NCBI GenBank assembly: GCA_947625775.1
Contig: CANQPM010000005.1
Coordinates: 124,001 to 188,000, forward strand
DNA length: 64,000 bases
Direction of reading: 5' to 3'
From: an uncultured Lachnospiraceae bacterium
GTDB taxonomy: Bacteria > Bacillota > Clostridia > Lachnospirales > Lachnospiraceae
Part shown: positions 28,762 to 49,985 of the stretch, piece by piece
How positions within the stretch are numbered: the stretch's first letter is position 1
Layout of the letters: every line of letters begins with the position of its first letter
The notes under the pieces: generated by a model
Told to the model about the DNA's origin: nothing
Database searches by the model: none
The model's input: only the letters and a program-made list of their open reading frames with translations
Program-made: the position numbers and the translations under genes

Positions 28762-28893
28762 TATATAATTTTGTAAAATTTGTGAATTGTATAAATAGAC
28801 ATTATATGGTAGGGCTGATATAATACAGAATGTAACTCCCAATATATTTATAGTTTTTTTGCTATACCCCAATAGGAAAGAAATACCTTCTCT

Positions 28894-28928
28894 AAAAGAA
28901 ACAGCAGGTTACGGCTGTTTCTTTTTTT
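28894..28928 (+). terminator. Terminator after ftsH
   Basis: A 12-bp perfect stem (28894-28905 with 28914-28925), 8-nt loop, and T-rich tail. Confidence 0.92.
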
Positions 28929-28971
28929 GTCTTTTTTAGGTTGGATTGAAGGGGTGAATTGGCGGCAGGAC

Positions 28972-29138
28972 GCCCGAGCAGCGGCATATACCTCTGGCGG
29001 GCATCGCTTGCGCTCAGTGGGAAACATAGCGGACACTAAGCTCGGCGGCGCTGTAAAAGGAGCTACGCTTTTACAGCTTGCCTCGCTAAGTGCCGATGTT
29101 TCCCAAGGCCCTTCAGAGGTATATGCCGCTGCTCGGGC
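28972..29138. repeat. 167-nt hierarchical palindrome, copy 1
   Basis: Outer arms 28972-28996 and 29114-29138 are perfect 25-bp complements. Inside, 29018-29027 pairs with 29096-29105 and 29050-29059 pairs with 29068-29077 (GCTGTAAAAG/CTTTTACAGC). The central 69 nt (29028-29096) are identical to 49733-49801 in copy 2, while the arms differ in sequence but keep their pairing. A structured RNA or a non-autonomous mobile repeat fits this pattern. A reading frame through it exists only because the repeat has few stops and is not counted as a gene. Confidence 0.85.
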
Positions 29139-29140
29139 TG

Positions 29141-29186
29141 GATGTTGGGGAATGTTGGGGTATGCTGGGGAATGCTGGGGGTGGGG
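29141..29186 (+). repeat. G-rich 10-bp tandem repeat, G-quadruplex candidate
   Basis: Four decamers of the form ATG(T/C)TGGGG(A/T) run from 29141 to 29180 and are followed by GTGGGG. Five G4 runs with 6-nt and shorter loops on the plus strand fit a G-quadruplex. The repeat begins right after the palindrome. Confidence 0.75.
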
Positions 29187-29244
29187 TTGTGGGAAGTGGG
29201 GAATGTAACTTAGATACTTTGTGGGGGAAATAGGAATAAAGTGG

Positions 29245-29273
29245 TTGACAAATGTAATATGTAATAATATACT
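29245..29273 (+). promoter_or_regulatory. Consensus promoter of the ACP/acyltransferase pair
   Basis: TTGACA (29245-29250) and TATACT (29268-29273) with 17-bp spacing; the ACP gene starts 136 nt downstream. Confidence 0.8.
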
Positions 29274-29408
29274 TCCATTTGGTGAGTGTGTGTGGTTGAT
29301 GTTTTTCTGCGTGGGACATGTGAATTTTATTTGGTTTTGGGGTGGTATGGGCAGTGAGGCGGATTTGGTAAGAGTGGTAAAGTGAATATTAAAAATGGAG
29401 GAATTGTT

Positions 29409-29642
29409 ATGGAGAGGGTATTTGAGATTATTGAGGAGCAGTTGCATTTGACGGGAGTGGAGCTTACGGAGGATATGACTTTTAAGGACGATTTGGGGGC
29501 GGATTCGATAGATTTGGTGGAGTTGGTGATGGCGTTTGAGGATGAGTATGGTATTGAGGTGCCGTATGAGGAGCTTGAAAAGAGGGTAAAGACTGTCGGT
29601 GATGTGGTTGAGTTTTTGAGGGAGCAGGGGGCGGATGTCTGA
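29409..29642 (+). CDS. Acyl carrier protein
   Basis: A 77-residue acidic protein with the phosphopantetheine attachment site GADSIDLVELV and the usual four-helix length. ATG 29409 follows GGAGG; an earlier in-frame ATG at 29382 would add an atypical tail. It is not in a fatty acid synthesis cluster: its stop overlaps by one base the start of a membrane acyltransferase, so this is probably a dedicated ACP rather than the main AcpP. The gene is unusually rich in G and T on the coding strand. Confidence 0.9.
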   Translation: MERVFEIIEEQLHLTGVELTEDMTFKDDLGADSIDLVELVMAFEDEYGIEVPYEELEKRVKTVGDVVEFLREQGADV

Positions 29643-39121: not shown

Positions 39122-40117
39122 ATGGCAAAGGAGAAATCAAAGGCAGAAAAGAAACAAAAGCTACAGTGGCATCCCGCGTTTGCGGCAGCCCTTGAAATGG
39201 AACTTTTAGAGAATAAGGACGACTTGGAATTTGAGAGGGAGCATAACCTTAACAGAAAGCCCCTGCTGATAGACTGTCTGGTAATAAAAAAGAAAAAGAA
39301 TGTAGTCATCAAAAATGAGATAGGAAAACTATTTAGGAAGTACAACATAATCGAATACAAATCAGCGAGAGATTCCCTGTCCATAGATGATGTGGCAAAG
39401 ACGCAGGGATATGCCCATTTGTATAAGGCATACGGCGAGAGCACTAATGCGGTAAAGTTTGATGAAGTGTCAGTCACGCTGATACGCGAATCAAAGCCCG
39501 TTGGATTATTCAAGTATCTTGAAGAAAACAGCTATATAGTATCAAATCCCTACAAGGGGATATATTACATAGAAAGCGGGTTAAAGTTTCCGACACAGAT
39601 AATCGTAGGAAAAGAACTTACCCACGAAAACCATGAATGGTTTAACCTGTTGTCGGATAAGGTGACAAAGCAGGAAATGGCAAGAGCCATCAAATATTCT
39701 AGAAATGCAAGGAGTAAGAACGAGCGGGAACTGATAGACGCTATATTTGAAGTGAGCGCATTGGCAAATAAGAATATAGTGGAAGAATTAAAGATGGGAG
39801 ATGAGGATATGTGTCAGGCATTGATGGAGATAATGAAACCAGAGATTGAAGAAGTTGTAAATACAGCAGTATTGCTGGAGCGCAAGGAAACGACAGAACG
39901 CGTCGAAAGAGAAACAACAGAACGCGTCGAAAAAGAAACAGCAGAACGCGTCGAAAAGGAAACGGCAGAACGCGTCGAAAAGGAAACCACTGAACGAGCG
40001 ACTAAAGTAGCAGTTGAAATGCTTCGCAGTCTGCATCTGGGAAATGATGAAATTAAGGAGGCGCTGCAAAAAAATTACAATCTTTCAGAGGAAGAAGCAC
40101 TTTTTTATCTGAAGTAG
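39122..40117 (+). CDS. PD-(D/E)XK nuclease-like protein with repeat tail
   Basis: A 331-residue protein. The N-domain has the pattern of restriction-like nucleases: KPLLIDCLVIKK (Asp) and YNIIEYKSARDSL (Glu-x-Lys), then DDVAKTQGYAHLYK. It resembles the transposase-like Rpn/PD-(D/E)XK proteins that are multicopy in Clostridia. After a helical region come five 8-residue repeats (ETTERVEK type) and a helical end HLGNDEIKEALQKNYNLSEEEALF. AAGGGGAA precedes the ATG. It may be a mobile or DNA-handling protein; function is unproven. Confidence 0.65.
   Translation: MAKEKSKAEKKQKLQWHPAFAAALEMELLENKDDLEFEREHNLNRKPLLIDCLVIKKKKNVVIKNEIGKLFRKYNIIEYKSARDSLSIDDVAKTQGYAHLYKAYGESTNAVKFDEVSVTLIRESKPVGLFKYLEENSYIVSNPYKGIYYIESGLKFPTQIIVGKELTHENHEWFNLLSDKVTKQEMARAIKYSRNARSKNERELIDAIFEVSALANKNIVEELKMGDEDMCQALMEIMKPEIEEVVNTAVLLERKETTERVERETTERVEKETAERVEKETAERVEKETTERATKVAVEMLRSLHLGNDEIKEALQKNYNLSEEEALFYLK
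39887..40006 (+). repeat. Five in-frame 24-nt repeats in the PD-(D/E)XK gene
   Basis: Units at 39887, 39911, 39935, 39959 and 39983 each encode ET(T/A)ER(V/A)(E/T)(R/K). The middle copies differ at only one to three bases, so they are recent duplications or are kept alike by slippage. Confidence 0.85.
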
Positions 40118-49653: not shown

Positions 49654-49677
49654 GCTGTTGGGGTGTGGCTAAAGTCC

Positions 49678-49844
49678 GCCCGCCCATGGGCATACACCCC
49701 ATTCAGACTCGCTCTCGCTCCGTGGGAGGCGTAGCGGACACTAAGCTCGGCGGCGCTGTAAAAGGAGCTACGCTTTTACAGCTTGCCTCGCTAAGTGCCG
49801 ACGCTTCCCAAGGGTCTTCATGGGGTATATGCCCATGGGCGGGC
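49678..49844. repeat. 167-nt hierarchical palindrome, copy 2
   Basis: Same length as copy 1. Outer arms 49678-49701 and 49821-49844 pair over 24 bp with one mismatch but differ in sequence from copy 1. Inner stem 49723-49732/49801-49810 has replacements A-T to G-C at two positions relative to copy 1, so pairing is maintained. Core 49733-49801 is identical to copy 1. TAGGCTGTTGG occurs at 49651-49661 and directly after the element at 49845-49855. Confidence 0.85.
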
Positions 49845-49911
49845 TAGGCTGTTGGTGGACTGTATATGTTGTATGGTGGTTTAGGCATAATTATTTATTG
49901 CGTTTGTGAAA

Positions 49912-49946
49912 GTTTATTCGAACGGTTGAGAGTACGTTTCGTAATT
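49912..49946. repeat. Copy of the end motif of the 34.5-kb inverted repeat
   Basis: The reverse complement reads TAATTACGAAA, five variable bases, TCTCAACCGTTCGAAT, which matches the left end of the 34474-34634 element with few changes. It lies in the leader of the DUF2975 gene. Confidence 0.5.
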
Positions 49947-49985
49947 ATATATTATAAACTGCTATGGAGAGGAGTGGATTGGGCT

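Follow-up and report, generated by a model that had tools for sequence, protein, structure and literature searches.

A dispersed fold-back repeat of Lachnospiraceae genomes with arms that vary in sequence and remain complementary

An element of ca. 190 bp, made up of a 167-bp branched palindrome and terminal tags of ca. 12 nt, is dispersed in the genome of a Lachnospiraceae bacterium and, within the genomes sampled, its family was found only in Lachnospiraceae. Its arms combine near-perfect Watson-Crick pairing with a largely free sequence. The best explanation, to which we give a probability of roughly 0.55, is a non-coding, non-autonomous dispersed fold-back repeat whose arms are kept complementary mainly by self-copying at the DNA level, and whose core was once recognized by a putative enzyme.

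Results

Anatomy of the element

The window, meaning here the whole 64,000-nt stretch of DNA analyzed, corresponds to G000:C5:124001-188000, where G000 is the host draft genome (3.75 Mb). It contains two copies of the element, with the following features:

28972..29138, + strand: copy 1, the full 167-nt palindromic element (sequence, blastn, fold and covariation alignments)
28959..28971, + strand: 5' terminal tag lying beyond the palindrome, consensus approximately TTGGCAANAGGNC
28972..28996, + strand: left outer arm (25 bp), fully complementary to 29114-29138 and differing in sequence from copy to copy
29027..29096, + strand: 70-nt core, equal to 49732-49801 letter for letter
29038..29038, + strand: left A of a conserved A·A mismatch, opposite 29088
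29042..29043, + strand: TC of a conserved TC/TC internal loop, opposite 29083-29084
29044..29046, + strand: inner 3-bp stem, left side, strongly covarying, partner 29080-29082
29050..29077, + strand: central 10-bp hairpin
29080..29082, + strand: inner 3-bp stem, right side
29088..29088, + strand: right A of the same A·A mismatch, opposite 29038
29114..29138, + strand: right outer arm
29139..29148, + strand: 3' terminal tag, approximate consensus TAGGTTTTTGG
49664..49677, + strand: 5' tag of copy 2
49678..49844, + strand: copy 2, likewise a full 167-nt palindromic element (sequence, fold, covariance-model search)
49732..49801, + strand: 70-nt core of copy 2
49845..49855, + strand: 3' tag of copy 2

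Read from the outside inwards, the element consists of the 5' tag, an outer stem of ca. 25 bp, a small side hairpin (CGCTTGCG) placed between outer and inner stem, the inner stem, an irregular core and the central hairpin, with the 3' tag closing the other end; conservation ends about 12 nt beyond the palindrome on either side. The core sequence is GCGG(A)YACTARGYTC ... TYRCYAAGTRCCGRCG. Its A·A mismatch was present in 92 of 95 aligned copies, the other three having A-T, and in the TC/TC loop T·C was found in 90/95 and C·T in 89/95 copies. Examples from other genera showed the pair adjoining the A·A mismatch swapped between A-T and G-C. The central hairpin was shorter in most of the copies read from G035, a genome of the genus, and replaced in other genera.

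The original prediction had described two palindromes of equal length at these sites, and both are indeed 167 nt long. Its identical core is identical as claimed, with a length of 70 instead of 69 nt; the perfect 25-bp arms of copy 1 and the single mismatch in those of copy 2 were likewise found, the latter arms measuring 25 bp and not 24. Reading by eye agreed that two A-T pairs in the inner stem of copy 1 are G-C pairs in copy 2, and added a third pair, missed earlier, which differs between the copies as a G·T wobble. Folded as RNA, copies 1 and 2 were far more stable than shuffled sequences (z = -10.4 and -9.8, respectively), and the two strands of copy 1 folded as DNA gave z = -9.4 and -10.8; none of 200 shuffles was as stable in any of the four cases.

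Open reading frames (ORFs) cross copy 1 on both strands, at 28927-29208 (+) and 28848-29447 (-). Neither Pfam nor NCBIfam gave a match for the ORFs crossing the element, and translations resembling 'VADTKL' or 'LAKCRRF' recur at several other loci. This fits the earlier remark that gut clostridia annotations contain spurious short proteins from similar repeats, and translations of element ORFs may be a cause of spurious protein annotations.

Some further observations concern the surroundings of the two copies. A terminator-like hairpin lies at 28894-28925, after an ftsH-like gene (named by eye) and just upstream of copy 1, so that the element need not serve as the terminator of that gene. At the site of copy 2 (window 49670-49969), the sister genomes G033 and G034 both hold ca. 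5.7-6 kb more between the flanks; copy 2 thus marks the boundary of a sizeable insertion or deletion, and the sisters do not offer a clean empty site. Elsewhere in the window, 39860-40018 consists of 24-nt head-to-tail repeats, one frame of which reads ERVEKETA (by eye).

Copies and taxonomic range

Further copies in the genome, the possible absence of which had been named as grounds for giving up the original prediction, were searched for by blastn and found at 41 places in G000 (42 rows, of which one is the opposite strand of the query itself). Pairing is retained in them, L019 being an exception. Stretches fetched from G033 and G034 contained 24 and 44 copies, respectively. Matches were obtained in four of 38 genomes of the genus, the host's own included (G000, G033, G034 and G035); the G035 form is diverged, the long central hairpin being absent from most of the copies read. 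When 33 copies were used to build a covariance model, it gave 82, 82, 99 and 31 matches in these four genomes, which were taken as roughly two per copy since a palindrome matches on both strands.

Beyond the genus, the covariance model matched in 87 of 299 sampled Lachnospiraceae genomes, an upper bound because a hairpin-biased model may catch other long hairpins, and a strict core motif matched in 24 of the 299, a lower bound because this pattern is unable to match the long-loop form of the window itself. When 14 loci of other genomes were read, the core was seen by eye in all 14 and a near-strict regular expression matched two. In a class-wide sample, the strict motif occurred in two of 391 genomes, both Lachnospiraceae, and in none of 375 genomes from outside that family; a reversed control pattern had no match in the same sample. 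The named collection gave 119 matching stretches. Among the 80 listed, most were labelled Lachnospiraceae, others [Clostridium] symbiosum, Acetatifactor, Roseburia, Clostridia, Clostridiales or uncultured bacterium; two listed records carried names from outside the class, Selenomonadaceae and Muribaculaceae, and may be binning errors. One matching record, Lachnospiraceae bacterium NE2001, bears no MAG label. The exact pattern was absent from IMG/VR, and blastn found nothing in plasmid and phage collections.

The closest pair among 33 copies of G000 was 96% identical and the median identity was 82%. Many copies occupy the same site in sister species, which indicates that the family is old. In G034, a pair of copies with the same sequence, separated by about 1.2 kb (L246, G034:C1:35999 and 37246) and one of them orthologous to L006 of G000, is possibly a local duplication.

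Variant copies were also observed. An extra palindrome of ca. 65 nt occupies the position of the side hairpin in G000 copies L012, L023, L024, L026 and L036. It gave four matches in G000, each inside or adjoining an element copy, and five in G034, one of these at C26:41447; it is missing in L021 of G000 and present in its G033 ortholog, L219. In L040 (G000:C3:5395) and L041 (C22:3188), another small hairpin stands beside the central one.

Covariation of the arms

Alignments A1 and A2 were made from 33 of the 41 G000 loci, with L012, L023, L024, L026, L030, L036, L040 and L041 left out as nested, partial, duplicate or carrying an extra hairpin. For alignment A3, 91 loci were supplied and 95 matches returned (34 from G000, 42 from G034 and 19 from G033). 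With plain MAFFT (A1, 33 copies), compensatory double changes were found in 37 of 64 predicted pairs. In A3, fitted to the model, standard pairs filled 98.5% of cells and both-side changes occurred in 44 of 63 pairs; none of 500 shuffles attained any of five measures, and sliding the partners by 1-3 columns lowered pairing to 33-44%. Change was most pervasive in the outer arms (helix 1), where 23 of 24 pairs had changed on both sides, and the three pairs of the inner stem (columns 144-146 with 182-184) had undergone 15, 28 and 45 both-side changes (93 distinct sequences). Thus the arms of other copies do still pair, as proposed from the two window copies, apart from the outer arms of L019.

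This exceptional copy (G000:C4:219476-219641) has outer arms that are not complementary to each other. Such arms are expected from recombination between two copies, and the locus is a possible point of chromosomal rearrangement.

Changes at orthologous sites and arm copying

Compensatory change could be followed in place in a hand-compiled list of 35 comparisons between orthologous copies, with flank identities mostly of 80-99%. They contained 62 double and 47 single changes, against 8.67 doubles expected if the two sides were independent, counts to be read with the caveat that comparisons overlap in triplets and that, at some loci, a different copy may have taken the place of the original one. 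In the 27 comparisons with little change in the loops, 25 doubles and 37 singles were found, with 2.72 doubles expected. The single changes yielded 20 G·U, 20 A·C and 7 other combinations.

Inner perfect inverted repeats of 19-29 nt were present in four of the 95 aligned copies, no other copy exceeding 11 nt, and these four correspond to three separate events. In G034, the left arm of L258 equals that of its G000 ortholog L018 and the right arm is its exact complement over 29 nt, at positions where L018 retains the usual mismatches. In G000, copy C9:7348-7575 was rewritten, G033 and G034 agreeing on another sequence at that site. The third event is common to L039 and its ortholog L260. The first two show the change expected from template switching, an imperfect arm turned into an exact complement by comparison with an unconverted ortholog. 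For RNA genes, template switching has been proposed as a source of compensatory changes that span several bases (PMC8794818). As to the earlier suggestion that the folded form is selected or generated, arm copying and in-situ double changes favor generation.

Wobble pairs

Across 62 pairs of A3, 5641 cells (98%) were Watson-Crick, 37 G·U and 60 A·C. Pair 35-210 (44 Watson-Crick, 39 G·U, 10 other) is left out of this count; with it, the figures over the 95 rows are 77 G·U and 60 A·C. As a control, tRNA stems gave 33 G·U versus 6 A·C, a count from 21 of 36 tRNAs that also holds 31 'other' cells, some probably caused by stem indexing; the bracket count of ARAGORN is unable to show A·C in tRNAs. 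Since transcription of a palindrome in both directions would mask a preference for G·U, copies were split by the direction of the flanking genes. On the co-transcribed strand in tandem gene contexts, 42 ortholog groups gave 42 G·U versus 22 A·C (permutation p 0.0028), or 39 versus 16 (p 0.0004) without the chimeric L019, the cells counted being non-independent. The bulk of this excess came from G034 (20:4), the ratios in G033 and G000 being 7:4 and 18:16. It consisted mainly of GC-to-GU changes (29, versus 9 GC-to-AC) and was weak for AU-to-GU (12 versus 9). Transcription-linked C-to-T mutation could be an alternative source of the GC-to-GU component. Combined, the in-situ doubles, the arm copying and the low number of G·U pairs point to generation at the DNA level.

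Genomic context and mobility

A mechanical ORF calling was made after masking the element, and the copies of G000 lie between the ORFs so called. Among the 38 with an ORF on either side, 15 were in the context '->E->', 12 '<-E<-', 6 '->E<-' and 5 '<-E->', where E is the element, whereas three copies lacked a called ORF on one side. No orientation bias relative to genes was seen in G000 (15 '->E->' versus 12 '<-E<-').

Presence and absence varied between species. L020 is present in G000 and G033 and absent in G034 and G035; L027 is present in G000 and absent in G034; conversely, L249 and L259 are present in G034 and absent in G000 (the last three sites read by eye). L011, found in G000, is apparently absent in G034, where the left flank aligns little. 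At several of these sites, additional sequence next to the element differs as well, so that the inserted unit may be the element alone or a longer stretch; the comparisons are between species, and the change may be a gain or a loss. At L249, a 6-bp TATAAT on both sides is a candidate target duplication; no clear duplication was found at L020, L027 or L259.

Clustering of the neighbors comprised 818 ORFs from 119 loci, and the 25 clusters occurring in most loci were read by eye. The top clusters were ABC transporters (20 loci) and signalling proteins (16), the rest reaching at most 6 loci, and several of the latter were ORFs running through the element itself. These 25 clusters, mostly abundant families, included no mobilizing enzyme or transposase tracking the element. 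A tyrosine-recombinase-like protein (by eye) was seen in the fetched stretch at 4 of the 119 loci (L063, L139, L148 and L169), the four proteins being merely 26-34% alike. Pfam family PF01797 (Y1 transposase) was absent from G034 and G035, both carriers of the element; it gave two partial matches at one place in G000, one with a stop, and one match with a stop in G033. PF01797 was found in 20 of the 38 genus genomes, most of these without the element.

Discussion

Alternative explanations

Four other readings were weighed against the preferred one of a self-copying fold-back repeat. In one, the element is a structured RNA or stability element, transcribed with its neighbors in either orientation and selected for pairing as RNA, for instance as a 3'-end stabilizer or an RNase III site. 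The strong covariation, the stable fold, the conservation of a non-canonical core across genera and the position of the element between promoter-like sequence and a gene at L011 and L027 (by eye) agree with it, as do the G·U excess of the co-transcribed strand, above all in G034, and the overall count when pair 35-210 is kept. However, in the 62-pair count G·U falls below A·C, the reverse of tRNA stems; G000 alone has no G·U excess and G033 only a slight one, AU-derived cells contribute little, and single in-situ changes are even. Rfam matched only a tRNA in the window and, over 28900-29200, nothing even at E values as high as 10, and the lack of orientation bias also speaks against a transcribed function, although a near-symmetric hairpin would work either way. 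We regard this reading as rather unlikely, although it keeps some weight; of the original alternative 'structured RNA or mobile repeat', the dispersed repeat is upheld by the copies and their presence/absence, and a structured RNA is not established. It is also unlikely that the apparent compensatory change at orthologous sites results solely from ectopic gene conversion by other genomic copies. Conversion would explain why L250 and L043 differ at many pairs and also in the loops (10 doubles, 8 of 39 unpaired sites), and the unmatched outer arms of L019 are as expected of a recombinant, yet the rewritten arms of L258, L039 and C9:7348-7575 match their own partners and differ from one another, and doubles are still in excess, 25 versus 2.72, once comparisons with divergent loops are removed.

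The remaining two readings invoke known kinds of mobile repeat and are both given little credence. An ordinary MITE, that is, a DDE-type insertion sequence shortened by deletion and moved via recognition of its terminal inverted repeats, would account for the size, the inter-ORF location, the copy number and the presence/absence between species. By contrast, sequence conservation in the element is lowest in its inverted arms, which is the opposite of what a sequence-recognized end needs; no parent insertion sequence was seen among the neighbors at the 119 loci and no clear target duplication beyond a single 6-bp candidate, so that this reading is already disfavored. A REP-type element, the single-stranded hairpin of which is acted on by a RAYT/IS200-group Y1 (HUH) transposase, shares with ours a hairpin with conserved irregularities, short non-palindromic tags, dispersal and persistence at orthologous sites. 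It appears about equally improbable, because PF01797 is missing, partial or interrupted in the carriers, because most genus genomes with PF01797 lack the element, and because neither a GTAG nor a CGTC tag is found in the consensus.

Comparison with known systems

Integron attC sites conserve structure and not arm sequence, and display extrahelical bases in the folded strand. The present element also keeps structure over arm sequence and, unlike attC sites, its copies are dispersed. Template switching at quasipalindromes has reportedly been studied in mutation assays of E. coli; here it is a dispersed repeat family that is concerned. MITEs and stem-loop families such as ERIC, RUP and bcr1 are short. 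Like the element, these prokaryotic repeats are non-coding, have inverted ends and lack a transposase of their own (PMC10969869, PMC2267715, the main texts of which do not contain the term Lachno). They differ in that the arms of the element are largely free in sequence and conserved in complementarity, its center being the most conserved part. REP, BIME and RAYT-associated repeats are, as the element, dispersed, extragenic, hairpin-forming and present in many copies, with a short tag beside the hairpin (PMC3733652); REPs are 20-40 bp long with a GTAG or CGTC tag according to the same article, whose main text contains none of the terms Firmicutes, Clostridi and Lachno. By contrast, our element forms a branched palindrome of 167 bp, its terminal consensus (approximately TTGGCAANAGGNC and TAGGTTTTTGG) contains neither tag, and no Y1 gene tracks it. 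The one-step, multi-base compensatory change through arm copying resembles the quasipalindrome correction or template switching described for RNA genes (PMC8794818), except that copying here acts across a dispersed repeat family. Among the matches listed in searches of the open-licence literature, no description of this repeat was found. The element is an unnamed fold-back repeat, similar to REPs and MITEs in being dispersed and geneless, yet a member of neither by the features tested.

Proposed mechanism and implications

For the preferred reading, a fold-back repeat renewed by DNA-level self-copying, the course of events would be as follows. A strand folds back and one arm would be recopied from the other by template switching (quasipalindrome correction), with ectopic conversion between copies probably assisting the maintenance of complementarity. 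The irregular core, with its A·A mismatch, TC/TC loop and side hairpin, may be recognized during movement by a putative enzyme, probably as a single-stranded hairpin. Template switching should erase conserved mismatches, yet the A·A mismatch was kept in nearly all aligned copies, so the model also needs either selection or a low frequency of such events; conservation of the mismatched core suggests that a putative factor recognizes it. More tentatively, the element might represent a class of bacterial mobile elements whose inherited feature is a DNA fold, in which a mismatched core is read as a single-stranded hairpin by a putative enzyme and arms nearly free in sequence are renewed by self-templated copying, spread over many Lachnospiraceae genera and modular, as the optional extra hairpin at a fixed position of some copies would suggest.

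Because each genome holds tens of copies, and sister species their orthologs, these repeats constitute a natural system for observing compensatory change at the DNA level. They also call for caution, since covariation is usually read as evidence of functional RNA and template switching may have made much of it here. The repeat family may account for some spurious protein annotations and, if the enzyme that moves these repeats is found, it would be one that recognizes a fold with a nearly free arm sequence.
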